A DNA stretch of 38,700 nt from IMG/VR virus record IMGVR_UViG_3300034198_012379, positions 1 to 38,700 of that record; one strand, given 5' to 3'. The notes beneath the pieces are model-generated. The model did not search any database. It had not been told where the DNA came from and worked only from the letters and a program-made list of their open reading frames with translations. The stretch's first letter is position 1. Each line of letters begins with the position of its first letter. Below are positions 4,528 through 25,469 of the stretch, piece after piece. Origin of the DNA: a virus. The translations under genes and the position numbers were made by a program.

Positions 4528-4889
4528 GCAGACACCGAGACGACGATCCGCCGGACTTCGGCTGCGACGATGCCGAGTGCCAGTGCGGTGGCTTCTTCAC
4601 CGAGGTGCCCACTCGGTGTGAGCACGGTCAGGAATACCGGCATTGCTTCCTCTGCCACATCCAAGGCAAGCCACGGTCCACCCTGATCACGTTCGAGTGT
4701 GAGGACTGCGGCTCGATCACGACCATGGATCTGGCCCAGGAGGAACCACCTGACTGGGAGGACAACCTACCCTGGAACACCGAGGAGGCTGACCGGCACC
4801 AAGCCTGCCAGCACGGGGAGGGTGGTGAGTGTGATGCCTGCCACGTCCTCTCCGACTTTGCCTACGACGCATGGAGGGAGCGGAGATGA
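4524..4889 (+). CDS. Cys/His-rich probable zinc-binding protein
   Basis: The ATG at 4524 overlaps the preceding stop and gives 121 residues. The protein is full of paired cysteines and histidines: C-D-D-A-E-C-Q-C near residues 15-22, CEHGQEYRHCFLCH (about 34-47), CEDCG (about 62-66) and CQHGEGGECDACH near 95-107. Such pairs suggest two or three zinc knuckles. No known family is recognised. Similar Cys-rich small proteins are common in early phage operons. The stop overlaps the next gene's start (ATGA). Confidence 0.65.
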   Translation: MSRHRDDDPPDFGCDDAECQCGGFFTEVPTRCEHGQEYRHCFLCHIQGKPRSTLITFECEDCGSITTMDLAQEEPPDWEDNLPWNTEEADRHQACQHGEGGECDACHVLSDFAYDAWRERR

Positions 4890-5110
4890 CCACCCTCGAC
4901 ACTCCGACCGGTCGCATTGACCTCTCCCTCACCGGCTGCCCGTGCAGCCCCGACATCGCGGGCCCCTGCGGCTGCCCGTTCGATCACGCCCGTCACTGGG
5001 TGCGGTCGAACGGTGGCCGATGGATGGAGTCCCCCCGTGGATCCAACACCCTGGCCGACATTGTAGCCGGTCGCACTTTTATGGAAATACTGTGCGACAC
5101 AGTGCGATAA
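4886..5110 (+). CDS. Small Cys-containing protein, unknown
   Basis: This frame gives 74 residues from the ATG at 4886, which overlaps the previous stop and is preceded by GGAG at a short distance. An alternative ATG at 4871 would lengthen the overlap. The segment TGCPCSPDIAGPCGCPFDHA (about residues 16-35) carries four cysteines. The 3' end (5070-5110) overlaps operator cluster C, so the last codons are also regulatory DNA. Function unknown. Confidence 0.6.
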   Translation: MTTLDTPTGRIDLSLTGCPCSPDIAGPCGCPFDHARHWVRSNGGRWMESPRGSNTLADIVAGRTFMEILCDTVR

Positions 5111-5119
5111 TTGTGCGAT
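5070..5119. promoter_or_regulatory. Operator cluster C
   Basis: Four heptamer-type sites: GTCGCAC at 5070-5076, then GTGCGAC at 5092-5098, GTGCGAT at 5102-5108 and GTGCGAT at 5113-5119. The last three are spaced 10-11 bases apart, so they lie on one face of the helix. A TATAAA sequence follows immediately at 5121-5126, as does CAGCACC, which is also found after cluster A. This probably controls a promoter for the two genes at 5158-6023. Confidence 0.6.
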
Positions 5120-5157
5120 TATAAAACTCAGCACCGGTAGCAACTACCACACACACC

Positions 5158-5424
5158 ATGATCCCGAGCCAACCGAAGACACTGTCCCTCGTTCGCCAGT
5201 TCCTCTCCCTCCTCTTCGGACCTCCACCCTCTGGTGGTTCTCCTGTCGCGACCGGCGGCAGGAAACCCCGCAGAGTCCGGTTCCGCCCATCCTACCCGGA
5301 CCCGAACGAACCCAGTGTCCACTGGCACGCCTATGCCCTGCGTCGTGCCGGGTGGATGAAACGACGGGAGACCATCCAGGGCAAGAAGATCACCTACCTC
5401 GTCGCCATCCAAGCGACAGCCTGA
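5158..5424 (+). CDS. Small basic protein, unknown
   Basis: This 88-residue protein follows operator cluster C with a C/A-rich leader (CTACCACACACACCATG) and no Shine-Dalgarno sequence. It is rich in Pro, Arg and Gly at the N-terminus. The ending, WHAYALRRAGWMKRRETI plus a short hydrophobic strand, could be a small nucleic-acid-binding fold. No family is recognised. It is probably co-transcribed with the SSB-like gene. Confidence 0.55.
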   Translation: MIPSQPKTLSLVRQFLSLLFGPPPSGGSPVATGGRKPRRVRFRPSYPDPNEPSVHWHAYALRRAGWMKRRETIQGKKITYLVAIQATA

Positions 5425-7046: not shown

Positions 7047-8237
7047 CTAACCGGCGAAGTCAACTAGGGAGGTGATCGATTCGTAGGTCAGCCCCCAATA
7101 CTCGGCAGACTGCTCCTTGCTCCTGGTGTTCCGGTAGTGCTTCTGGAAGGTCTTGATGGTGGTGTGCCCCATCTCCTTCATCACCTCATCGGTCGAGACT
7201 GTGGGGGCAAGGTAGGATCCGAACGAGTGCCGGGTAAGGTCTCTGTTTGCCAGGGACCACTCTGCGATCAGGGTGCCGTCAGGACGGCGGATCAGGTGCG
7301 TCCTGCGCTTCCGGTAGTTCACCGGGCAGATCCTACCCTTGTCCTCCTTGTAGGCTGTCAGCCAGGACAGCAGGGTCGTGTTGAGCGTGACGTATCGCAT
7401 CACGGCACCCGTCTTCCCTGCGTTCTTCTTGTCGCGGATTGCCAGGATTCCCTGCGCCCATCTGACGTCCTCCCAGGTGATGCCGTTGTCAGACTCGAAC
7501 TCTCCCGTGGGACGCAGACCGGCGAAGCAGAGGACGGCGAAGTAGAGACCCATCGGTCGGTCCTCACGCAGACACCTGACCAGCAACTCACGAAGCTGCT
7601 CGGGCTGTAGGATTGCCACCTCCCTCGCCTCCAGGGACTTCACTCGGATGGCAGTGATAGGGTTCTTGGTGACCTTGCCGTTGGCGATAGCGTGAACGTA
7701 GAGGGACCGCAGCATCTTGACTGCGGTGTTGTGGGTCTTGGGTGCCCACTTGTTCCGCTTGTCGGCTGCGGAAATCTCGTCACGCCAGAAGTCGATGTCC
7801 ATGGTGCCGACCCGGTGGTCCCAGAGTCCCGGGGTGAACTTGCGTTCCAACCAAGTCCATGCTGTTGACACCGACTTCTTCGGGTGATCAACAAGGTAAG
7901 CCGCAAGCAGGACGCGGAGGGTAGGGGATCTCCGCTCGGCTGCGGCACGGTCGAGCATCTCGTTGCAGAACTCCTCCAGTCCCTCATACCCTAGCATCTG
8001 TGCCTCCTGATCCACTCTGATGGCAGTCTCGATCAGTGCGGTGGGTGCGGTCGAGACGTTCCTGCCCGTGTCCTTCATGGACCTCCTGATCTGGTCCGCC
8101 CTTGCCTTGGCTGCCCCTTCTGTTGGGAAGTTCTCGCGGGACCGGGATCCCGTAGGGCTGAGCGATGCGGGGATCGATAACTGCCACGACCCTGACTGCG
8201 GATCGAGGTAGGGGATCAGAGCGGGGGTTCTGGGCAT
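7047..8237 (-). CDS. int: Tyrosine recombinase (phage integrase)
   Basis: This 396-residue protein has an N-terminal arm-binding region, a core-binding SAM-like region (about residues 100-195) and a catalytic domain. Visible catalytic positions are R242 (FAGLRPTGEFE), a Lys near 270, R336 (LTRHSFGSYL), H358 (EMGHTT) and the nucleophile Y368 (KHYRNT). The first His of the usual HxxR box is replaced by D333. It would integrate the phage at attP (9281-9322) into tRNA-Lys and, with a directionality factor, excise it. The gene is transcribed with the late block and is separated from attP by the lysin. Confidence 0.9.
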   Translation of the reverse strand: MPRTPALIPYLDPQSGSWQLSIPASLSPTGSRSRENFPTEGAAKARADQIRRSMKDTGRNVSTAPTALIETAIRVDQEAQMLGYEGLEEFCNEMLDRAAAERRSPTLRVLLAAYLVDHPKKSVSTAWTWLERKFTPGLWDHRVGTMDIDFWRDEISAADKRNKWAPKTHNTAVKMLRSLYVHAIANGKVTKNPITAIRVKSLEAREVAILQPEQLRELLVRCLREDRPMGLYFAVLCFAGLRPTGEFESDNGITWEDVRWAQGILAIRDKKNAGKTGAVMRYVTLNTTLLSWLTAYKEDKGRICPVNYRKRRTHLIRRPDGTLIAEWSLANRDLTRHSFGSYLAPTVSTDEVMKEMGHTTIKTFQKHYRNTRSKEQSAEYWGLTYESITSLVDFAG

Positions 8238-9522: not shown

Positions 9523-12500
9523 TCAGTTGGAGAGACCCTCGATCTGGTCCTCGACCGACCGGGAGAGGATGCCGACAGCCCGCCACCGGCGAAGCTGTTC
9601 CTCTCTCGCGCCCGAGGGCAGCCGGTTCAACTCGGTTGCCATCGCCTGGGCCTTTGCTCCTGACGCAGTGCCCATGCCCTGGAAGGATTTCTCCAGCTTG
9701 GTGAGGGTGGGCTTGGTGCCGGTGACCTCGACGTCCTCGGCGATCTCGGACAGGAGTCGAGCCTCGTCCGAGGTGATGCGCCCTGCCTTGAGTAGATCCT
9801 CTACCTTGGCCTGGGCCTTGGCTGGATCTTTGCGGACGTCCTCCGTCAGCTTGTCCCACCGTTTGTCGGCTGCCTTGCCCTTGGTGACAGAGGCAGGTTC
9901 GAACAGCGCAGCCTCGATGTCGTCGCCCAGCCCGAAGGACCGGACGGTTCGGGCCATGATGTCGTAGATCAAGGTGCCGTTGCCGGACAGCCTGCCCGCA
10001 GCCTGGGCGGTGTGGTGCGCTGCCAGGGTCAGGTCGTGCAGGTTGATACCGTCCTCGGTCATGTTCCAGAGATCGCCCAGAGGACGTGCAACAGATTCAA
10101 TGGATTGTAGGATCGGCAACTCCGCACCCCTCCCTGCGTTACCCATGGCAGCCTGGGCAATCGAGTTGATGCCCTGACCGAACAAGAAGATCCCATTGAG
10201 GGGGCCGAGGAGGGTGGCGGCGAGGTAGTCCCCCCACTCGAAGTCCTCCTCGTCGTCGTCGTTGAACGGGGCGCGGATCAGGTCCGAGGCAAGCTGGAAG
10301 ATCGTGGGCAAGATGAGGTGCCCGATGATCAACCGCTTCGCGAAGTCTTTACGGGCACCGGCACGACCGGCACGCATGTCACCGAACGCTTCCCAGGTCG
10401 ATTGGAGATACTGCCGGGGAGAGGTGAGATACATCGTAAAGACCCGGGCGATGCTGCCATCCTGCTCGAAGGTCGAGAGGTCTTTGATGTTCCCAGCCTG
10501 CTGGTTGCGGTCGGTTGCCATCTCGAAAGCCTCGACAGCGAAGTCCTCGATCTCCTGCTCGGTAGCCTCCGGGTTGCGTTTGAGCGCAACGTCCCTGCCA
10601 TGCATGTAGGCAGCATACCCACCGACGATGACCGGGATGATGTCACCCGCCCGACCCGTCACCATGCCGAACTCGACTACTGCCATCAGAGTTGACTTCG
10701 GCTTCTGCTTGCCCCCGACCATGCGGTCGATGTTGCCCGAGATGGTCGCCATGATGTCCCGGTCGTAGCCACTCTCGAACCTCCGTTGGGTGTAGGCTAG
10801 GGATGCCATCTTGTCCCAGTTGCCCTTGGGATCAGTCCAGAACTTGGCTTGATACTTCAGGAAGGACTTGACCGGCACGTCGAACAGGTAACCAGGGAAC
10901 GCAGTCAACTGCTTGAAGAACACCCCCCAGTTGTAGGCGAGCGAGGCGATGACGTGCGCCCTGCGGATCTTGTCGAGGTAGCTGATCTGCTTGGCACCAC
11001 GGTTCCCACCATCCGCGAAGTATTGCAGCCTCGCCTGGATGGCATCGTTCAACTGCTGGGACGCATTCTGCGTGATCGCCTTCTGCACGTCCTTATGGCT
11101 TAGCACTGATCGCAACTCCTGCATCGGCTCAGCCCACACCGTGAAATGCTTGGCCTGGGCAACGTGCTGAGTGTAGAGCGAGAGTGCCCCGACCGATGTG
11201 TCCGGCTCAGCCTTGTGCTTGATCCGGCCTGACAGGAACCCTGGAGACAGCGAGCCTCCTGCGGGGATGTTGCTGTCGATCAGGTTGTCGATCTTGACCC
11301 GGTCGGAGACGAACCGGAGCGGAGAGTAGTGCCGGACCTTCGGCAGGCTGGCACCGTAGACCCTGCGGTAGACCTGATTGATCTCGTCGTAGCCGGTCTC
11401 GTATCGCTCGGACAGGAAGTCGCGGATTGCTAGGGACTCAGACGTGAGGAACTCCTCGATCTGATCCATGGTCTCCTGGGAATACCCATGGTATTCCATG
11501 GTCTGCCCGACACCATCCTGCATCCACATCATCGAGAGGTTGATCGCTTGATCCTGGGACAGCCGCATCTCCTCAATCGTGACCATCGACTCGTTGACGA
11601 ATTCGACACCGGTCAGGGTGGTCTTCTTCTCCTGGGTCGCGATTCGCTTCTCCAGCCTCTTGATCTCATCCTTGTCCGTCGCGGAAGCAAGGGTGGTCCG
11701 AAGCCCGTTGATGATGGTGTTGTGAGCGTCGAGTGCATTGAGGATTCTGGATTCCTCATCTGCCGACAGACCTAAGCCGACCGCGGTCAGCTTGCCGTTC
11801 GCGAGCCCACGAGCTTGCATGATCGGGATGTTCTTAGTATACCGGGCACCCTTCTCGAAGGTCCGCTTGATGACTCCGGTGTCGTCGTGCTCCTGGGTTT
11901 GCTCAACGTGCCTGACGCTGACCTTGTGCCGCCACTTAGCCTTGGCGATCTCGGAGCTTCCTGACCGGTCGATTCCATAGATGTCCGCCAGGAATTCTGA
12001 CAACCGGTTGAGTTCGTTCCCAACTTCGTTCGCCTCCCGGTGGGTGGCTCGGTGGACGAGTCTCGTGCCCCACTCGTTGAGCGCACTGCCGAGGGTGCCG
12101 GTGGCCTTGTCAGCCCGGGATGCCGCATTGAGCAACCACTCCCAGGAGATTAGGTTAGCGTGGAACTGGGCGAACTTCGCATCCTCACTGCTCTGCTTCG
12201 CTGCCTCGCGTTTCGCATCGGAGTCGTTGAGCAGCCCCTTCCCGCCCGTGATGGTGTTGACCATCGTGGTGCGGATCGCATCGACCCTGGCCTTGCGGTC
12301 AGCTTCGAGGATCTTGCGAGTGAGTCTCCCTTCGCCGATCATGGTGGTGATCTCGTCCACGATCTCTACCAGATCCTCAACGGACTTGGATTCCGGGGCA
12401 CCATAGCGGACCACCCGCAGCAACTCCTCGCTCTTCTGCTGGGTCACGGCATCGTCCTGACTGAGCGCGATCTCCGCGTCGAGTCCTCGGATCTTCTCCC

Positions 12501-15500
12501 CGGCTTTCTCTGCGTCCAGTTCTAACTCGACTGCGATCAGCTTCAATTCATCAGTGACGACGTGCCCTACGGTTGAGATGTCTCTGTTCTTGTGGTCCTT
12601 CCTGGCAAGCCCCTTGTCCATCAGGTCGTCGATCTGGTTGAGCAGGCTGCGCTTCGCCTGTTTGTCAACCAGTGCATAGGCACGCTCGATCCGGTCTTGC
12701 AGCTTGGTGAGTCGCTCGAACGGGGTGCCGGACTTGATGAGGGCACCGAACCCTCCCAGGCTAGCCCTGCTCTCACGAGGCAACGTCGCGATGATTTTCT
12801 CCAAGGTGTTGGAGTGATCGATCAGGCGCATCCGTGCCGCCAGAGTCTGCCGTGGGGTGTAGTTGAGATCGACCCGCAGGACAGAGGTTCGTTCGAGCTT
12901 CGCCAGATCCTTCTCTGACTTCGTCAGGGATGCGACCAGCTTCTTGTTGAGCGAAGCCAGCCGAGGGGCAGCGGACGATCCCTCCGCTTGATCCCGAAGG
13001 TCAGCGACCTTGGCCTTGACCTTTGCGATCCTCGCCTCATGGGCATCGACCTCGTTGACGATCTCGGTCTCCTGGGCAGGAGTCAGGTTCGGCATGCTCA
13101 GCCGGACTGCCGCTGCCGCCGGTCCCCCGGCTTTGAGTTTCTGGGCATCTGCCAGCTTGATGGACCTCACCATCGGACGCATCCCGCCGGACTTGATCAG
13201 GCTGCCACGGGCACCGTTGCTGGTGGCCACGGCATTGCGATCCTGGGCGACCTCACGGGAGATCTCTGCCAGGGCAGTGCGTGCAGCCCTGACACTCTCC
13301 AGGGATGCCTTGGTCTCGACCAGGGGACCACGTCCCACTGATAGGGTGGGACCGATCTCCCTGCCCTCCTCCTGCACCCACAAGGGCAGGAGACCCACCT
13401 TCTGCGGGGCATACTCGGTGGTGCCTCCGTCTGCGGTCTGGTTCTTCTCACCGTGAGGACCGAAGTTAACCCACGAGTTCTGCCCCCGGGTCTCTGCCGT
13501 CATGGCAGGGAGGGCAGCCGGGGAATACATGGCTGCGTGAGACTGCCACGCATTCTCCTCACCGGCGGCACGGAATCCGAACCCTTCCTTGATGTGCCCG
13601 AAGTAGTCATGCACCACCCGGAAGACATCGTTCGCGACCATCTTGTGCCCGTTGATCACCTCGCCGGTCTCGACCAGCATCGGGTTCTTAGACACGTCAA
13701 AGGCTGCACTCTCAGGACCACCGAACCCATCGGAGGTTGGGAAGAACCAGAGGTGCCCATTCTCGACCACGTCAAGGATGGCATTGCGAGGGTTGCCGTA
13801 TGGGTCCGGCGCACCGGCAGGGATCGGCTCGATCTTCAGACCGGTGGCCTTCACGAATTCATACTGCGCCAGGGTCTCCTCGATCATGGCCGAGTAGGAT
13901 GCAGCCACGGCAGGATCTTCAGGTCTGCTCTCCATCTCATCAAATGCCGCAGCGATCCGAATGGCGCGGGACTTCTTGACGTTGACGTAGCGGGAGGGTG
14001 GTGTGTAGGTCAACCCCCTGCTGGCAGTGTAGTCGATGGCAGCCTGACGGGCAGGCATGTGAGGACCGAACTCCACTCTGGTCTCCTCGGTGGCACCAAC
14101 TCGCACCACGTTGGCGAAGATCGGCATGCCCTCCAGGGCGCGACTGCCGACCGACAGGGTGACACCGACCCCAGTCTTGATCTGGACGTCCTCACGGGCT
14201 GCGTCTTGGACTGCAATCGCATCACCGTAGGCGACCACTGGGACGGTGCTTGCATCGTATTTGTCCGCAGGACCAGGGTCTTCTGACCGGACCATGTAGA
14301 CAACGTCAGGGGTGCCGAGGGCATCGACGTCCCAGTCGCCAGCTTCCGCCAGATCGAAGAGCACCCGGCAGACCGGGCGGAACCCGTGCGGTGCGTAGAG
14401 GTTGGGCAGGAATCCACCGATATCGAATGCATCGAGACGGTTGGCATACTGCGATGCCTCGGCCAGGATTGGCCGGATGTCTGCCTTGGATCCTGGGAGT
14501 TTGTAGACGCTGACAAGGTCACCATCGCCGGTGACCGCAACCCCGGCAGTGTTGTCCGGGGAGGTGAATAGAGAGGTGGCAGGATCTAAGTAGAACGAGA
14601 GATCCTTTACGGTGACAGCCTTGCCCTGCTTGTGCTCATCGCGAACACGCTGGAGGGCATCTCGGAATGCTAGACCTCTGGCGTTTCGTTGTTCCCTTGT
14701 TTCTCCTCGTCCTGCAAAAGAGACTGTAGATAGAGACCCATCCCGAGTTGCTCCTTGCGACGTTGCAGATCTGCCTGACGTGCCTCCTCGTCCTTCTGGG
14801 CTCGTAGGGCGATCAGTCTCTCCGCGAAGATCTTGATCTTGTCGTCCGACAGCGTTCCCGCTATCTCGTGAGGCTCGATCTCTTGCCTCTCGGGCTTGGG
14901 TTCCAAGCCCCCGTCTGTCTGCGAGTTTGAGGAGTTCTTCATCGTATGAGGATTTGAGTTTTTCGGAGTTCTTCTTGTCGGTCAGCTTAGCCCAGAGATC
15001 CTTCTCTGGATACCACAAAATTGCCTGAATGTCAGCGTTGGAAACCTCGACACCTTTCGCGAGCATCCGCTCCCGAACTTCGTTCACGATTGCAGAGATG
15101 ACCCTCCGGTCTGCGTCCGCAGGGGCATCCTTGATCGCAGGCAACATGGTCTTGGCAGCGGCAGCCCACTCGGGCTTGAGACCACCCTTCTCCTTGCTCC
15201 GCAGGAGATCCATGGGCATCATCTCGGTCCTGCCTTCCTTGTTGTAGGCAGCATCGAGAAGTGGGAATACCTCCTTCTTGGTCAGCTTTTTCTTGGCATT
15301 CTTGCCACCCTCGGCAAGCCTCGCCTTCTGTGCCTTGGCCAGGACTTTGTCCTGTAGCTTGGTGATCCTGGCAGCCAGTTCGAGGATCGGCAGGGTGCCG
15401 TTCCGAAGGGCAGCGATCTCATCCTTGGTGATCCTGGCAGCCACGAACCGTGCCCGCTCCAGTTGGTCGGGGGTGATCTCTCCTGCCAGGAATGCATCCT

Positions 15501-18500
15501 TCTCCTCCTGCGTGGGGGGACGAGACTCACGGAACAGCTTGTAGACCTTCTCCCAGGTCTGAACAAGAACCTTGGCATCCTTCTGGAGTTGGAGAACATC
15601 GAGGCCGGTCATGTCCTCCTCGGCGACCTCGGGCGACTTCAGCTTCCCTGCCTTGGTCCGAACCTCATTGACTACCTTCTTGCGGAGCCCCTTGGGTAGC
15701 GGCATCCCTGCCTCGTTCAACGAGTTGATGAGACGGGCAGCCTGCCGTCCGGTGATCTTGTCAGAGATCACGTCGCCGGTCCAGCGTCCCCAGGTCCGAC
15801 GCATCCAGAGGTCAATGGTGACGGGGTTGAATTTCCCCATGAGGTTCTGCAAGAACCCTTGCCCGATCTTCGGGCCGAAGATTGCGGCACCACTGACGAT
15901 GTCATCAGGCTTGCCTGCGATGGTTACCAGTTTGCCGGTCAGGTCGGTGATCAGATCCTCCAACTCCCTGACCTTGTAGTCCTCCTTGTCGATGATGTTG
16001 TAGAGACCGTCGAACCCTACCAAGCCCAGCATCTGGTCAGCCAGTTTCAGGTTGGCTGAGATCGATGGTGCCTTGGTGCCATACTTGCGTGCCGGGTCGA
16101 ACTTGCCGGTGCTCTTGAAGATAGCAAACTGCTCCTCGGCGCACACCGTGTTCATCGACACCGCCAGATTCTGGGAGGTGATCGCCATGGCCAGGAAGAA
16201 CATCATCTTCGCGTTCCTAGCCTTGCCCTCGAACACCTCGCCTGCCATCTCATCACTCTGCATCTCGGGGTGAACCACTGCTGCGATAGCCATGGCATCC
16301 CTAACCGAACTTGTATACCAGTTGGCGGCATTCTTACCTGACGCAGCCAACTCGGTCTCGACCTCCAGCAGTGCGTTGACCGTGATCTCCTCCAGTTGCT
16401 CCGGGGTGATCGTGGCTGCGGTGATGATCTCGCCCCAGTATTCGATTGCCTGCTCCTTGAGGTGGACGGCAGCGTTCTGGTGGGAACGCTTCACTCTCTC
16501 GGTCGGGCCGTGCAACAGGTTGATCGAGGACATCGGCATAACCTGATCACTTTTCTTATCACCAACGGACAGGGTAGGACCGACTGAGGTTGGTGCCTTC
16601 GACCGGCGGAGGTTCTCCGCATAGGCAGTGATGACAGCGTCCGGGGTATCAGGATTCTTGCGAAGGTATGCATCCGCCTTCTCCGGGGTGAGGGGCAGCA
16701 ACTTGGCAAGTTGCCCAGCTTCGTCGTTGGTCAGCCCAGCATAGGGGTTGAACGTCGCGCCGGTCTGCAAACCGGAGGACTGCGCCAGGGCAGACTCGAA
16801 CCGTGGAGCGACGGCACCACCGGCAATCGCCTTCTGAAGTCCGATTGCCCGGTGCATGATCTCCTTGCTCCAGGCTGCGAGCATGGTGAGGAATTCACGC
16901 ACGCTCTTGGGCATGGTCTTGGTCTCGACGGACTTGCCGACGAGGTAGTCGAGGGCAGCGTCAGAGAACCACTCGACCATCCCCTCGGGGGTGGCGAGGT
17001 GAGAGGACTCTGCACCGGCGAACTTCTCGAGCGATGCTCTCCATGCGCGGAGATCCTCCATGGTGACGTTGCCGTCAGCCAGCCCACGCTTCACCCACTC
17101 TTGGGATTTTTCCCTGACAAGGTGGTCAGGCCGGGAACCCTTACGGAGTGCGATGACTGCCTTCTTGATGCCGTCCCGGACTTCGGTCCAGTTGCTGCCG
17201 AAGACTTGGAACTCTGCCAGGAGGGACTCGGTGGTCCGCTCCGTGCCCTCGCGCATGGGTGCCGTAGCGGCGTCCAGGGCGGCGACCATGCCGTCGCTCG
17301 ACGCTGCCATGGTAACGTCGATCAGTTCCTGCTCGGTGCCGTAGATCGTGACCTCGCTGCGTGCGATCCCGCGCCGGTCGTCCAGCCGGTCGTAGTAGTT
17401 CACGAGGTCGGTCAGAGCCAGGGTTTCGAGGTCCGGCTCGACTGCCACGTCCTTGGTCTGCGCCTGGAATGCCGCAAACACCTTGCCGACTCCCGCCTTG
17501 CCATCGACACCCAGTGCCGTGCGGATCTCGGTGCGCTTCGCGGGAGGGATGACGCTCCACTGCTTGCGGAATGCCTCCTCGTCGCTGTCCCGCAGGGTGA
17601 TGACGTCAGCGTCCTCCATGATGCCGGTCAGGACGTGCTTCGGTGGTGCGGTCTCATCGACCTCAGCGTCCTTGTCAGAGGTGACCTCGGACAGATCCGG
17701 CTTGAGACCTTCGACCCTGGCAGCATCGGAGATGTGAGCATCATTCTCGGTCGCTGCCTCCAGCAGGGCGCGGGCATTGCCCTGCCATTCGCTCAGCATC
17801 TTGCGCCCTTCCTCGGCTACCACCTCATCCGAGGCGGAGGCAAGCATTCGATTCATGTGACGGACAGCAGGGTGGGAACCATCAAGGATCTGGGATGCAG
17901 TCTCGATGGTGATGGTGTTCATCGCCCGCTGAGCCTTCATCATGATGACCTTGTCAGAGCGTTCCATGCCGTGCATTGCTGCGCCGGTCAGGAATGCGAC
18001 TCCCGCAGTCCGCATCATCTTCTCAGGGTCGAGGAGGACACGGTCAGGATCAACGCCGCCTACCTTCTCGGAGAGGTCGACGAGGAACTGGGAGGACAAT
18101 TCCTGCGCCGTTTCCCCGAACCCACTGAAGATCGCCCGACCGAGACCGGTCTCGACGTATTTGCCTACCGTTGACGCAACCATCTTGCCGACCGGCGTTG
18201 CCTGGAAAATCTTGCCGCCGACACCGCCTAGCCCGAGACCTTCGAGCGATCCGATGGCAGCCTGGACGTAGGTCTGAATTCTGCGCCCGTCAGCGTCGAG
18301 TCCCGCCTCGGTGGCTGCGTTGTAGCCACTGGCAGCCTGCGAGGTGACACCGAGACCAATCGTGCCTACGCCCCCGGTGGCGGCACCGGCGGTGATGAAC
18401 CCTAGCGCAGATCCGAATCCTGCCGGAAGGTCACCGAATAGGAACGTCTCCGCCAGGGCGGGGTTCTTGCGCAGGGTCTCCTCGACCTTGGACTTCGTCC

Positions 18501-19083
18501 CGGCTCCGAGGCGACGACCGATTTCCCGCACGATGTATCCGGTGGCTGCCTCGTTGTATCGATAGGTCTCAGCGAACGATTCTGCGTCCGTGAACATGGT
18601 CGTGAATGCAGTCAGGTAGTCACCATTCTGCATTGCCGCCCCACTCTTCGTGGCTTGGTATCTCGCCAGGACGTTAGCCTTGGCACCTTGGAACGTGGAA
18701 TAGTCCTTGCCATTCTCCTCGTGAGGAACCGCAGCCATCGTTCCCGCACCCTCGATTCCCGAGGCGAACAAGTCGGAGATCGAGGTAACCAGTGAGGATG
18801 TTGCACTCTCGTAGCCAGGGACATCGTTGTCGATGGCATTCATTCTCCATTGGTTAAAGAACTCCTTGAATCGCTTCTCGGTCGCGACGGGATCCGCTCC
18901 GTGCTGGATCATGTATTTCGCAGCCTGCCCAGTATAGTTGGTAAGCAGTGCCATGCGAGTTGCAGCATCACCCTCTTGGTAAGCTTTAGCCGCACGAATG
19001 TCGTCCCATGACACAGGGGCATCTACCCGGGACGGACTCTTGTTGAGGTTGACTCTTGGGTCAGTGTAAGGATCTGGGTTCAT
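9523..19083 (-). CDS. Giant polyvalent internal virion protein (3186 residues)
   Basis: The ATG at 19083 overlaps the preceding stop (ATGA); a GTG at 19116 would add 11 residues. Residues 1-400 hold a Gly/Ala-rich hydrophobic stretch (about 219-258) of the kind seen in ejected or channel proteins. Around 1063-1100 is a conserved-looking FGPKIGQGFLQNLMGKFNP block. Around 1518-1580 is a GNAT-acetyltransferase-like segment ending LYAPHGFRPVCRVLFD. Around 1824-1876 is an enzyme-like block with HDYFGHIKEGFGF and TRGQNSWVNFGPHG. Long coiled coils follow, then a C-terminal region with hydrophobic helices (about 2700-2980, for example FTMYLTSPRQYLQSTW). It follows internal virion genes as T7 gp16 does. 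Phage polyvalent proteins bundle such domains for injection with the DNA. LSVG-type motifs recur near 836, 1641 and 1911. Individual enzyme roles are inferred. Confidence 0.75.
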   Translation of the reverse strand: MNPDPYTDPRVNLNKSPSRVDAPVSWDDIRAAKAYQEGDAATRMALLTNYTGQAAKYMIQHGADPVATEKRFKEFFNQWRMNAIDNDVPGYESATSSLVTSISDLFASGIEGAGTMAAVPHEENGKDYSTFQGAKANVLARYQATKSGAAMQNGDYLTAFTTMFTDAESFAETYRYNEAATGYIVREIGRRLGAGTKSKVEETLRKNPALAETFLFGDLPAGFGSALGFITAGAATGGVGTIGLGVTSQAASGYNAATEAGLDADGRRIQTYVQAAIGSLEGLGLGGVGGKIFQATPVGKMVASTVGKYVETGLGRAIFSGFGETAQELSSQFLVDLSEKVGGVDPDRVLLDPEKMMRTAGVAFLTGAAMHGMERSDKVIMMKAQRAMNTITIETASQILDGSHPAVRHMNRMLASASDEVVAEEGRKMLSEWQGNARALLEAATENDAHISDAARVEGLKPDLSEVTSDKDAEVDETAPPKHVLTGIMEDADVITLRDSDEEAFRKQWSVIPPAKRTEIRTALGVDGKAGVGKVFAAFQAQTKDVAVEPDLETLALTDLVNYYDRLDDRRGIARSEVTIYGTEQELIDVTMAASSDGMVAALDAATAPMREGTERTTESLLAEFQVFGSNWTEVRDGIKKAVIALRKGSRPDHLVREKSQEWVKRGLADGNVTMEDLRAWRASLEKFAGAESSHLATPEGMVEWFSDAALDYLVGKSVETKTMPKSVREFLTMLAAWSKEIMHRAIGLQKAIAGGAVAPRFESALAQSSGLQTGATFNPYAGLTNDEAGQLAKLLPLTPEKADAYLRKNPDTPDAVITAYAENLRRSKAPTSVGPTLSVGDKKSDQVMPMSSINLLHGPTERVKRSHQNAAVHLKEQAIEYWGEIITAATITPEQLEEITVNALLEVETELAASGKNAANWYTSSVRDAMAIAAVVHPEMQSDEMAGEVFEGKARNAKMMFFLAMAITSQNLAVSMNTVCAEEQFAIFKSTGKFDPARKYGTKAPSISANLKLADQMLGLVGFDGLYNIIDKEDYKVRELEDLITDLTGKLVTIAGKPDDIVSGAAIFGPKIGQGFLQNLMGKFNPVTIDLWMRRTWGRWTGDVISDKITGRQAARLINSLNEAGMPLPKGLRKKVVNEVRTKAGKLKSPEVAEEDMTGLDVLQLQKDAKVLVQTWEKVYKLFRESRPPTQEEKDAFLAGEITPDQLERARFVAARITKDEIAALRNGTLPILELAARITKLQDKVLAKAQKARLAEGGKNAKKKLTKKEVFPLLDAAYNKEGRTEMMPMDLLRSKEKGGLKPEWAAAAKTMLPAIKDAPADADRRVISAIVNEVRERMLAKGVEVSNADIQAILWYPEKDLWAKLTDKKNSEKLKSSYDEELLKLADRRGLGTQAREARDRASRDSGNAVGRQDQDLRGETDRPTSPEGRGGTSGRSATSQGATRDGSLSTVSFAGRGETREQRNARGLAFRDALQRVRDEHKQGKAVTVKDLSFYLDPATSLFTSPDNTAGVAVTGDGDLVSVYKLPGSKADIRPILAEASQYANRLDAFDIGGFLPNLYAPHGFRPVCRVLFDLAEAGDWDVDALGTPDVVYMVRSEDPGPADKYDASTVPVVAYGDAIAVQDAAREDVQIKTGVGVTLSVGSRALEGMPIFANVVRVGATEETRVEFGPHMPARQAAIDYTASRGLTYTPPSRYVNVKKSRAIRIAAAFDEMESRPEDPAVAASYSAMIEETLAQYEFVKATGLKIEPIPAGAPDPYGNPRNAILDVVENGHLWFFPTSDGFGGPESAAFDVSKNPMLVETGEVINGHKMVANDVFRVVHDYFGHIKEGFGFRAAGEENAWQSHAAMYSPAALPAMTAETRGQNSWVNFGPHGEKNQTADGGTTEYAPQKVGLLPLWVQEEGREIGPTLSVGRGPLVETKASLESVRAARTALAEISREVAQDRNAVATSNGARGSLIKSGGMRPMVRSIKLADAQKLKAGGPAAAAVRLSMPNLTPAQETEIVNEVDAHEARIAKVKAKVADLRDQAEGSSAAPRLASLNKKLVASLTKSEKDLAKLERTSVLRVDLNYTPRQTLAARMRLIDHSNTLEKIIATLPRESRASLGGFGALIKSGTPFERLTKLQDRIERAYALVDKQAKRSLLNQIDDLMDKGLARKDHKNRDISTVGHVVTDELKLIAVELELDAEKAGEKIRGLDAEIALSQDDAVTQQKSEELLRVVRYGAPESKSVEDLVEIVDEITTMIGEGRLTRKILEADRKARVDAIRTTMVNTITGGKGLLNDSDAKREAAKQSSEDAKFAQFHANLISWEWLLNAASRADKATGTLGSALNEWGTRLVHRATHREANEVGNELNRLSEFLADIYGIDRSGSSEIAKAKWRHKVSVRHVEQTQEHDDTGVIKRTFEKGARYTKNIPIMQARGLANGKLTAVGLGLSADEESRILNALDAHNTIINGLRTTLASATDKDEIKRLEKRIATQEKKTTLTGVEFVNESMVTIEEMRLSQDQAINLSMMWMQDGVGQTMEYHGYSQETMDQIEEFLTSESLAIRDFLSERYETGYDEINQVYRRVYGASLPKVRHYSPLRFVSDRVKIDNLIDSNIPAGGSLSPGFLSGRIKHKAEPDTSVGALSLYTQHVAQAKHFTVWAEPMQELRSVLSHKDVQKAITQNASQQLNDAIQARLQYFADGGNRGAKQISYLDKIRRAHVIASLAYNWGVFFKQLTAFPGYLFDVPVKSFLKYQAKFWTDPKGNWDKMASLAYTQRRFESGYDRDIMATISGNIDRMVGGKQKPKSTLMAVVEFGMVTGRAGDIIPVIVGGYAAYMHGRDVALKRNPEATEQEIEDFAVEAFEMATDRNQQAGNIKDLSTFEQDGSIARVFTMYLTSPRQYLQSTWEAFGDMRAGRAGARKDFAKRLIIGHLILPTIFQLASDLIRAPFNDDDEEDFEWGDYLAATLLGPLNGIFLFGQGINSIAQAAMGNAGRGAELPILQSIESVARPLGDLWNMTEDGINLHDLTLAAHHTAQAAGRLSGNGTLIYDIMARTVRSFGLGDDIEAALFEPASVTKGKAADKRWDKLTEDVRKDPAKAQAKVEDLLKAGRITSDEARLLSEIAEDVEVTGTKPTLTKLEKSFQGMGTASGAKAQAMATELNRLPSGAREEQLRRWRAVGILSRSVEDQIEGLSN
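14670..14942 (-). CDS. Possible overprinted gene inside the giant gene (90 residues)
   Basis: A second frame on the same strand runs from an ATG at 14942 to TAG at 14670. It encodes a helical, charged protein containing DDKIKIFAERLIALRAQKDE and then RRKEQLGMGLYLQSLLQ. By my count 63 of its 89 codons after the start (71%) end in G or C, against 30 of 89 (34%) for the giant's frame over the same bases. The giant's product there is an R/G/S/T/Q-rich linker. Other out-of-frame readings in this gene give low-complexity S/R/P sequence, unlike this one. No Shine-Dalgarno sequence precedes the ATG, as for most genes here. It could be a true nested gene, a frameshift tail or a trace of fusion. Confidence 0.5.
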   Translation of the reverse strand: MKNSSNSQTDGGLEPKPERQEIEPHEIAGTLSDDKIKIFAERLIALRAQKDEEARQADLQRRKEQLGMGLYLQSLLQDEEKQGNNETPEV

Positions 19084-20624
19084 TTGTCTTGGGTAGAATA
19101 TGCCTTGAATTTCCACCAGGGTGGTGTCGCTATTGGAGCCAGGGTGTCGAACCCACGGGTCTGTCCATCAGGGGTGGAGAACTTCATTGCGTTCGGATCG
19201 AACACACCAGGGGCACCGATCAGGTTGTAGGCGTCCCTCGAATCCCTCATAGTGACACCTAGTGCCTCAAGGAATTCCTGGCCTTGCTTGAGGGTTGCGT
19301 CAGGATGGGCGATGCGCCAGTCGGAATATTCCTGGGAGGTCAGGAGTTCGAATTTCTTAGCCTCGAAGGCATCCGCTCTTGGCAGGTAAGACTTGACCAT
19401 CGAGCTAATCAGTTCATGACCGTGACGCAAGACAGGGTCGGTCCCTTCGCTCATGGACCCGCTGAGAACCTGCTTCATGTAACCCCGGAACTTCGGAGGG
19501 ATCTCGGCTGCGATCCGGGTCTCCATGGCATACCTCTCGTGCAGAGGTGTCCCTGCCGTCATGGTCTTAGTGATCTCGTCACGCAGAGCGTAGATCTGAT
19601 CAAAGTCCGGTTTGCTGCCGTCCATCCACTGATCCCTGAAGGTTTTCCGGTGCTCGTTCGAGAGACCCTTGACGCTGTCCAGCAGTTGGTTGAACGTCGT
19701 CTCGTCCATGTCAGGATACTGGTCGAGAGAGAAAGCGATGTTCTCGACACCATCCCTGGTGACCCTGCCCTTCTGCTCCTCGATATACCTGCCGAACTTG
19801 TAACGGTCATTCTCGGTCATCCAGGGCATCTTCACTGCCTTGAGAATCTCCTCTGCTCTCCAGGGGTCGGTCTCTGCCGTCCGGCTGAGCACGGTCCTGC
19901 CGATCTTGGCATCGGCATCACGCATGCGAATGCCCTCAAGTTCTGGCGTTGATAGACCGGCTTTTACCATGGCAGCGGAGACCTCGGCAAACTTTTCCAT
20001 GTCGCCATTCTCGACCGCATAGTCCTGGGCCGCCCTGCTCTTGAGCTTGGCGATAGCGATTTCCTGACGCATCGCCATTGAGCCCAGCCGGGTGGACGTC
20101 TCTGCGTCCCAGGCTTGGAGGTTGCGCTCCAGCTTGCGGGTGACCGACCGGCTGCGCTTGAGGTTAGGATCGAGGAGGGATGCCCTGACTGCGTCAGATT
20201 TCGCCTTGCGCCCCTCCTCCCAGGAAGATGGGTCTTCCGGCAGGGCAGCAGCATAGAGTTCCCACGCTTCGGACATGCGTTGATCTGCCTCGATGAGTTC
20301 GGCAGTCTCCCTGGCGTGGAGCACTTTCTTGCCGATGGCAGACAGCCCCTCACCGATAGCACCCACTGCGTTAGCCGCAGCACGTCCCACAGAGAGGGAT
20401 GCCTCTGCCTGGGCACGTTCGGCTAGGGATAGGGCTGCCCCGTCCTGAATGACCCCGCCTTGGCGCACCTCGCCCGCAGGGGCGGCAGTGCTGAGACGGA
20501 TGCGTCCGGCCTTGACCGGCTGGACCTGACGTTGCGCGTCCCCTACCCCAGGCATGATCTGAGACAGACCTCCTCCTGGATTGGGAGCATTCGGGATTCG
20601 AATGAGTTGCCGTTCTTTTGCCAT
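19080..20624 (-). CDS. Internal virion protein, helical (T7 gp15-like position)
   Basis: This 514-residue, mostly helical protein lies between the 310-residue internal protein and the giant gene, the place of T7 gp15. The first 80 residues are Gly/Pro/Ala-rich and include SLSVGRAAANAVGAIGEGLS (about residues 73-92), which repeats the LSVG motif of the giant protein. The rest is charged helices (for example ERNLQAWDAETSTRLGSMAM). Its product is probably part of the inner core that is ejected into the cell. GAGGG precedes the ATG at a plausible spacing. The stop overlaps the giant's ATG. Confidence 0.6.
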   Translation of the reverse strand: MAKERQLIRIPNAPNPGGGLSQIMPGVGDAQRQVQPVKAGRIRLSTAAPAGEVRQGGVIQDGAALSLAERAQAEASLSVGRAAANAVGAIGEGLSAIGKKVLHARETAELIEADQRMSEAWELYAAALPEDPSSWEEGRKAKSDAVRASLLDPNLKRSRSVTRKLERNLQAWDAETSTRLGSMAMRQEIAIAKLKSRAAQDYAVENGDMEKFAEVSAAMVKAGLSTPELEGIRMRDADAKIGRTVLSRTAETDPWRAEEILKAVKMPWMTENDRYKFGRYIEEQKGRVTRDGVENIAFSLDQYPDMDETTFNQLLDSVKGLSNEHRKTFRDQWMDGSKPDFDQIYALRDEITKTMTAGTPLHERYAMETRIAAEIPPKFRGYMKQVLSGSMSEGTDPVLRHGHELISSMVKSYLPRADAFEAKKFELLTSQEYSDWRIAHPDATLKQGQEFLEALGVTMRDSRDAYNLIGAPGVFDPNAMKFSTPDGQTRGFDTLAPIATPPWWKFKAYSTQDK

Positions 20625-24545: not shown

Positions 24546-25469
24546 TTACTCGTTGACCTTGACCATCACGACCTTCTTGTCATAGCGCCGGACGCCACCC
24601 ATACGGGCAACGGCACGGATCTGACGGGCGTGGGAGTTCTCGGGCAGAGGATCGATGTGCGTCCGTTGGTCTCCGAAGAAGAAGTGGACAGCGGAGGGCA
24701 CCCACGCCAAGAGGTTGCGAACGCTACCGGAAGTGGTCAACTGCTCGGAGCGGATGAACTTGATGCCAAGAAACTCATCAACCTGCCCGCTGACGAGAGG
24801 CTGGACGTTGTTGTAGTCGGCACTGGTCACCTCGGTCTCAGTAAGCAGCGAGTCCAGATCGGTCTGGCTAACTGCCATAATGATCTTGGTATCGCGATTC
24901 TGGGCAATCCCAGATCCAACGACTTCGTTGATCCCGAAGATGGACTTGACCCGGCGCAGCTTGTCCAAGGTCAATCCCGAGTTGGCGGCGGTTCCACTGC
25001 GGACATAGTCGCGAGCGACGGTCTGGGCAGCAGGAAACGTCGCGGCAGGGCCGGTCCCGTCGTCGCCGGTAATCGCAGGGCCTTCAAGGGCAGCGAAGAT
25101 CCGCTTGTCCACAAGCCGTTCCATGTTGGCCTGGATCAAGGCTAGAACTGAACTGTCAGGGCGGCCAAGGGCGGCAAGCTGAACGTCGTCCCACTCATCG
25201 ATAACCTTGGTGGATGCGTAGGGCTTGACGCTCAACCAACGACTGCTGGAAGTGAGATCACTGCGGACAGTGGTCCCGGCTCGGACGGTGATTTCCTCAA
25301 CCGCATCGTCTTGGTCGAAATCGTCGAACCGCTTTCGCCCGCCGTTATGGCTGGATTCAAGGGTGACGTAGGCTTTCATGCGAGACAGCATCTGCTGTGC
25401 TTGCATGCCCCAGTTCTCATTGAACAGGTCAATGAAGTGGCTTGGTAGGTTGGTAACAGCTTGACTCAT
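24546..25469 (-). CDS. Major capsid protein (HK97 fold, Phage_capsid_2-like)
   Basis: This 307-residue protein sits after scaffold and a small head gene. Segments such as RSDLTSSSRWLSVKPYASTK, VIDEWDDVQLAALGRPDSSV and IFAALEG fit the podovirus capsid family that uses a separate scaffold. It is followed by a strong terminator, in line with high expression. The ATG has no Shine-Dalgarno sequence. Confidence 0.8.
   Translation of the reverse strand: MSQAVTNLPSHFIDLFNENWGMQAQQMLSRMKAYVTLESSHNGGRKRFDDFDQDDAVEEITVRAGTTVRSDLTSSSRWLSVKPYASTKVIDEWDDVQLAALGRPDSSVLALIQANMERLVDKRIFAALEGPAITGDDGTGPAATFPAAQTVARDYVRSGTAANSGLTLDKLRRVKSIFGINEVVGSGIAQNRDTKIIMAVSQTDLDSLLTETEVTSADYNNVQPLVSGQVDEFLGIKFIRSEQLTTSGSVRNLLAWVPSAVHFFFGDQRTHIDPLPENSHARQIRAVARMGGVRRYDKKVVMVKVNE

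Follow-up and report, generated by a model that had tools for sequence, protein, structure and literature searches.

Genome context and the giant gene

The DNA analysed here, referred to as the window, is a 38.7 kb IMG/VR virus record whose genes are ordered as in a short-tailed phage. A terminase-like gene is followed by genes for a head-tail adaptor (phrog_332), the major head protein (phrog_3437), a tail protein (phrog_376) and an internal virion protein (phrog_418), then by a 514-aa gene, a giant gene, and finally an endolysin and an integrase. The integrase (7047-8237, minus strand) adjoins the endolysin, so the phage is probably temperate. Comparison with named phages reveals no DNA similarity to the window.

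The giant gene spans 9523-19116 on the minus strand and has 3,197 codons when read from a GTG at 19116, which overlaps the 3' end of the 514-aa gene (19080-20624). An ATG at 19083 is an alternative start candidate, and neither start is preceded by a Shine-Dalgarno site. Surrounded by tail, internal virion, capsid and portal-type genes, the giant occupies the same place in the gene order as the T7 gp16-type ejection proteins, preceded by a gp12-like tail gene and one for an internal virion protein. Unlike those proteins, it is 3,197 residues long and carries extra modules; it has no sequence match to gp16 families, and its PHROGs matches are only to families of unknown function. From its gene position, the giant would be delivered into the host together with the DNA. 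Its modules are reshuffled among relatives: in locus L018 (10-7020), the window giant's domain 1734-1912 stands before domain A, and in the window it stands behind A. An open frame of 487 codons also runs antisense to the giant (16711-18174, plus strand) and is probably a by-product of codon bias.

A second coding frame inside the giant gene

Domain A of the giant (about residues 854-1407; 14896-16557, minus strand) ends in NADIQAILWYPEKDLWAKL...SYDEELLKLADRRGLG, and behind it lies a second reading frame, called B. This nested frame encodes 90 residues from an ATG at 14670-14942 on the minus strand, in the +1 frame relative to the giant, with the core motif EPHEIAGTLSDDKIKIFAERLIAL and the core consensus EPHE[IL]A..MT..Q...FA..L..LM. 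A first-pass annotation, made from the window alone, had pointed out this ORF and described the giant's own frame across it as a linker rich in R, G, S, T and Q; both are present in the translation. The B frame stays open for 13 codons above the ATG and is closed by a TGA at 14982-14984 (minus strand), which that annotation had placed near 14988, with no further ATG between the TGA and 14942.

Codon usage switches frame at this site. Across the 91 codons of 14670-14942, third-position G/C is 33% in the giant frame and 71% in the +1 frame, practically as first estimated (34% and 71%). The contrast persists when measured against the whole giant gene, whose mean is 74.5% and in which the B site is the lowest of all 91-codon windows. 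A scan of 78 giants for frame switches, based on each giant's own codon usage, finds 19 segments in the +1 frame and 2 in the +2 frame. Thirteen of the 15 +1 segments that do not lie at the 5' end fall at the B site, with a rough binomial P of ~5e-17 that ignores relatedness. The window gives the top score among segments not at the 5' end (42.1), and switches at the B site only. When the giant's codons are shuffled synonymously, an ATG ORF of B's length arises by chance at p ~0.09, so openness alone is not convincing; since this test is weak for single loci, the argument is carried by conservation, codon bias and start signals.

Other switches occur elsewhere in the giants. Locus L031 has another +1 segment outside the B site, 1035-1164 nt past the LWYPEK anchor, and the giants of L136 (MW202640) and L137 (MW202722) have a second frame-switch region further downstream, at 4826-5185 and 4865-5347, respectively. 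The +1 ORFs of this second region share GxGIVMxGPK, and L137 has a further small ORF there with a strong Shine-Dalgarno site; the region is perhaps another nested gene.

Distribution of the nested frame

As a single sequence, window B finds no relative in IMG/VR, and its relatives were reached only through domain A, which retrieves 32 loci directly and 80 with an alignment. The nearest relative, L004, has flanks 62-82% identical to those of the window, the same nested ORF and the same dip in codon bias, and its B protein aligns end to end with window B. Across 72 distinct A tails, a +1 frame of at least 40 codons with an ATG starts in or just behind A's tail in 65, compared with 2 for the +2 frame at the same place. 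A search with B alone yields 19 loci, and every one of their contigs had already been identified as a carrier of A.

Searches of B against Pfam, PHROGs and named phages (tblastn) give nothing convincing. Profile comparison links the window's B subfamily to those of L077, L085, L101 and L116 with probabilities of 90-96%, and gives no reliable link to those of L111, L109, L029, L103 and Limnohabitans phage DC33 (L003, PQ492659). These five subfamilies agree with window B in position, size and start signals; for L029, L103, L003 and others, homology to window B is not demonstrable. The DC33 record assigns that phage to the Inoviridae, yet its genome is 39 kb and its giant has 3,125 residues, so the classification looks wrong.

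A further set of loci (L129-L132 and L043) carries an A of the LWYYEKRLYG subtype, in prophage-like loci of Polynucleobacter and others. Behind A, L129-L131 have an open +1 frame, yet the scanned stretch contains no ATG ORF of at least 40 codons; B may start otherwise there or have been lost.

Selection on the two frames

Substitution patterns separate the two frames. In 17 pairs of nested loci, with most of A's tail left out, the B frame gives a pooled pN/pS of 0.47, against 1.03 for the giant frame over the same DNA and 0.31 for flanking A, figures drawn from pairs that share loci and are not all independent, and from counts that are biased in overlapping frames. B is thus constrained, and the giant's linker evolves close to neutrally; two pairs (L058/L079 and L019/L020) do not favour B. 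This is the opposite of the pattern named beforehand as fatal to B, in which relatives would conserve the linker and lose the alternate frame.

Comparison with L004 divides B into three zones on the minus strand. In zone 1 (B codons 1-24, 14871-14942), B lies over A's conserved tail and both frames are constrained, A more strongly, with identities of 0.62 for A and 0.50 for B. Zone 2 (codons 25-64, 14751-14870) holds the B core, where the giant frame is a low-complexity linker; identity is 0.42 for B and 0.28 for the giant. In zone 3 (codons 65-90, QLGMGLYLQSLLQDEEKQGNNETPEV; 14673-14750), both frames are 81% identical. This last zone is a C-terminal extension of B confined to the window and L004, and it overlaps the start of the giant's next domain.

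At the level of sequence, these comparisons show B to be a small, conserved gene that starts within A's tail or directly behind it and whose frame is under selection. They likewise show the giant frame across B to be only a neutral spacer between A and the next module.

Start signals and translation of B

Counting duplex energies of -5 kcal/mol or lower and taking the best of the possible ATGs, a strong Shine-Dalgarno site precedes B's ATG in 31 loci, all outside the window's subfamily, where it is written into A's own codons. The named complete podoviruses MW202640 and MW202722 are among them, with dG values of -12.1 and -11.0, as is DC33 with -8.3, where the nested ATG is at L003:11268 and opens a product reading MNAQDEHDYR...; the three records annotate nothing but the giant at the B site, and B is missing. 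Window B has no Shine-Dalgarno site (dG +2.2), and the same holds for its subfamily. Most structural genes of the window phage also lack one, among them the head protein gene whose start is at 25469; initiation without Shine-Dalgarno sites may therefore be common in this phage or its host. The window's B start is the least structured of those compared, at -1.2 kcal/mol against a mean of -9.7, and none of 40 comparison windows is as weakly folded.

L017, L026, L023 and the window all keep B's ATG even though its position differs by one or more codons, and stops in the B frame sit a few codons upstream of it. An ATG that is kept despite moving favours independent initiation over a frameshift product. 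The first-pass annotation's proposal of a functional overlapping gene is therefore strongly supported: the frame is conserved in dozens of relatives and is under selection, 65 of 72 loci have an ATG for it, and beyond the window's subfamily there are ribosome-binding sites as well. B is almost certainly a gene, and it is very probably translated from its own ATG. Ribosomes would begin independently at this ATG on the giant's mRNA, guided by a Shine-Dalgarno site in many families and, in the window's subfamily, entering without one at an unusually unstructured start. Both the giant and B would then be made from one mRNA in the late phase.

Nested and partly free arrangements

The 72 loci fall into two architectures. 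In 46, the nested loci, the giant reads through B in its own frame; in 26, the A_ends loci, A is closed by a stop codon no more than ~350 bases past the LWYPEK motif, in most cases within B. Where A_ends loci belong to the window's subfamily, this stop coincides with or precedes B's EPH motif, which leaves B's core coding in one frame only. B is the last gene of the late operon in A_ends loci. In nested loci, the giant frame across B is a linker that leads into varied modules: the next domain is common to the window, L012, L019 and L025, and other domains follow in L008, L014 and L020.

The first-pass annotation had also suggested that the giant arose by fusion of two genes that once flanked B, and had proposed looking for relatives with all three as separate genes. 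Part of this idea holds, in that A ends inside B in some relatives, B is partly alone there, and the linker evolves as if neutral. The three-gene arrangement itself does not appear: no A_ends relative was found in which a gene of its own behind B corresponds to the C-terminal half of the window giant. In a tree of A (74 rows), there are five changes between the nested and A_ends states, at least two of them forced; the deep branches are nested, and the root is unplaced. A fusion history is thus possible but not shown. The reverse order, with the nested state first and a stop gained later, is at least as possible on the same tree.

Domain A and its predicted pairing with B

Domain A matches no solved structure in Foldseek searches and no Pfam family above the cut-off. 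Against viral models, Foldseek matches of A are only to phage proteins named large polyvalent protein, ART-PolyVal or RelA/SpoT, and tblastn with the domain behind B matches records named 'large polyvalent protein' and 'RelA/SpoT'. The TSQN...V..N, FGPKIGQG and VTIDLW pattern of A suggested an HhH-GPD DNA glycosylase, with B as a Ugi-like inhibitor. This identification of A was dropped: PF00730 gives no match at E<=1, hhalign against three HhH-GPD proteins of Polynucleobacter gives a probability of 0.7%, and neither a PDB profile search nor Foldseek yields a supporting match.

AlphaFold2 was run once on an artificial frameshift-joined A+B chain with alignment A3 (46 rows). The joined chain reaches a pLDDT of 85.7, with most of the B core at 80-92, compared with 87.2 for A alone. 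The only strand residues that differ between the two models are T212-I213 of A, in KLVTIAGKPDD (15919-15924, minus strand; a strand only in the A+B model), and E21-I22 of B, just before EPHE (14877-14882, minus strand), predicted to form a beta bridge to domain A. About 14 residues behind the predicted docking strand lies FGPKIG (15862-15879, minus strand), invariant in alignment A2, and this loop loses confidence in the joined model. In this model the conserved part of B would pair with A beside the loop that is best conserved in A; because it comes from one artificial joined chain, read through strand assignments and pLDDT rather than coordinates or PAE, and from two-residue bridges, the docking is a lead rather than proof.

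What B is likely to be

Taken as a whole, the best explanation is that B is a real nested gene encoding an independently translated small partner of A, with a probability of about 0.6. B might be dedicated to A, with the strand before EPHE docking on A's VTI strand beside the invariant FGPKIG loop and a helix following. It might then hold or occupy A, as an assembly chaperone or an inhibitor, until the giant has been packaged and delivered. The partnership with A, taken as a separate claim, is tentative and falls a little short of an even bet. Doubtful, though attractive, is the further step of viewing A as a delivered effector whose antidote or chaperone gene is written in the other frame across its tail; B would then travel inside A's DNA, inseparable from it, and the spacer after A would be the shadow of B's coding.

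An unlikely but still substantial alternative accepts the nested gene and makes its protein unrelated to A: it would be small and late, with a role in the virion, in assembly or in regulation, and held in place by the overlap. Linkage through overlapping or abutting A's tail would suffice for the co-occurrence, B's sequence varies greatly between families in which A's end is conserved, and B closes the late operon of A_ends loci. However, B stays with A even though many different modules follow A, it still begins in or near A's tail where A_ends loci offer free space, and the search with B gave no copy away from A.

The first-pass annotation had raised a +1 programmed frameshift as well, by which A and B would form one chain ending at 14670. 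The 13 open codons above the ATG and the confident predicted fold of the joined chain would suit such a product, yet the moving but retained ATG, the upstream stops in the B frame and the strong Shine-Dalgarno sites of many relatives make it improbable; no conserved slippery sequence was noticed, although none was searched for systematically. Less probable again is a fusion scar with no present function, in which two genes flanked a small gene, the linker formed out of frame and B is now decaying. The partly free B of A_ends relatives and the neutral, low-complexity linker would fit a scar, but in nested loci B is open and under purifying selection, the giant's C-terminal half has no free-standing counterpart behind B, and the deep branches of the A tree are nested, so that the order of events may be the reverse. 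A compensating pair of indels, real or from sequencing, would produce exactly such a local switch in codon bias, but it is scarcely credible given that L004, an independent metagenome contig, shares the arrangement, refuting sequencing error, that the +1 frame has its own ATG and stop in 65 of 72 A loci, and that B is a separate ORF in A_ends loci.

Comparison with known systems and significance

Small genes lying in the +1 frame inside larger phage genes are already known from the Rz/Rz1 spanins (PMC6139136). Those pairs occur in embedded, overlapped and separated versions across phages, annotation usually misses the embedded partner, and the two products form a complex (PMC6139136). B is similar in being embedded or overlapping in an alternative frame, nested or partly free according to lineage, and unannotated. 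It differs in lying inside an ejection-type giant rather than a lysis gene; window B also contains no cysteine and hence no lipoprotein signal, so it is not an outer-membrane lipoprotein with a lipobox cysteine. Like the large polyvalent proteins (Iyer et al. 2017, PMC5512222), the giant itself has many domains, neighbours the virion genes and shows reshuffling of its modules. A word search of that paper finds no mention of overlapping genes, and no paper among the literature searched describes the B family or genes nested within polyvalent giants.

The giant proteins that phages deliver are commonly interpreted as a single string of modules. In this case one of those modules is accompanied by a concealed second gene across dozens of genomes from very different phages. 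Gene callers miss this conserved family of late genes, as shown by its absence from the annotation of the three named phages checked that carry it, and linkers in giants can be the coding shadows of other genes. Because some lineages have the gene nested and others have it partly free, the family offers an unusually clean natural experiment on overlapping genes. B also provides a ready-made candidate partner of A and may reveal A's role.
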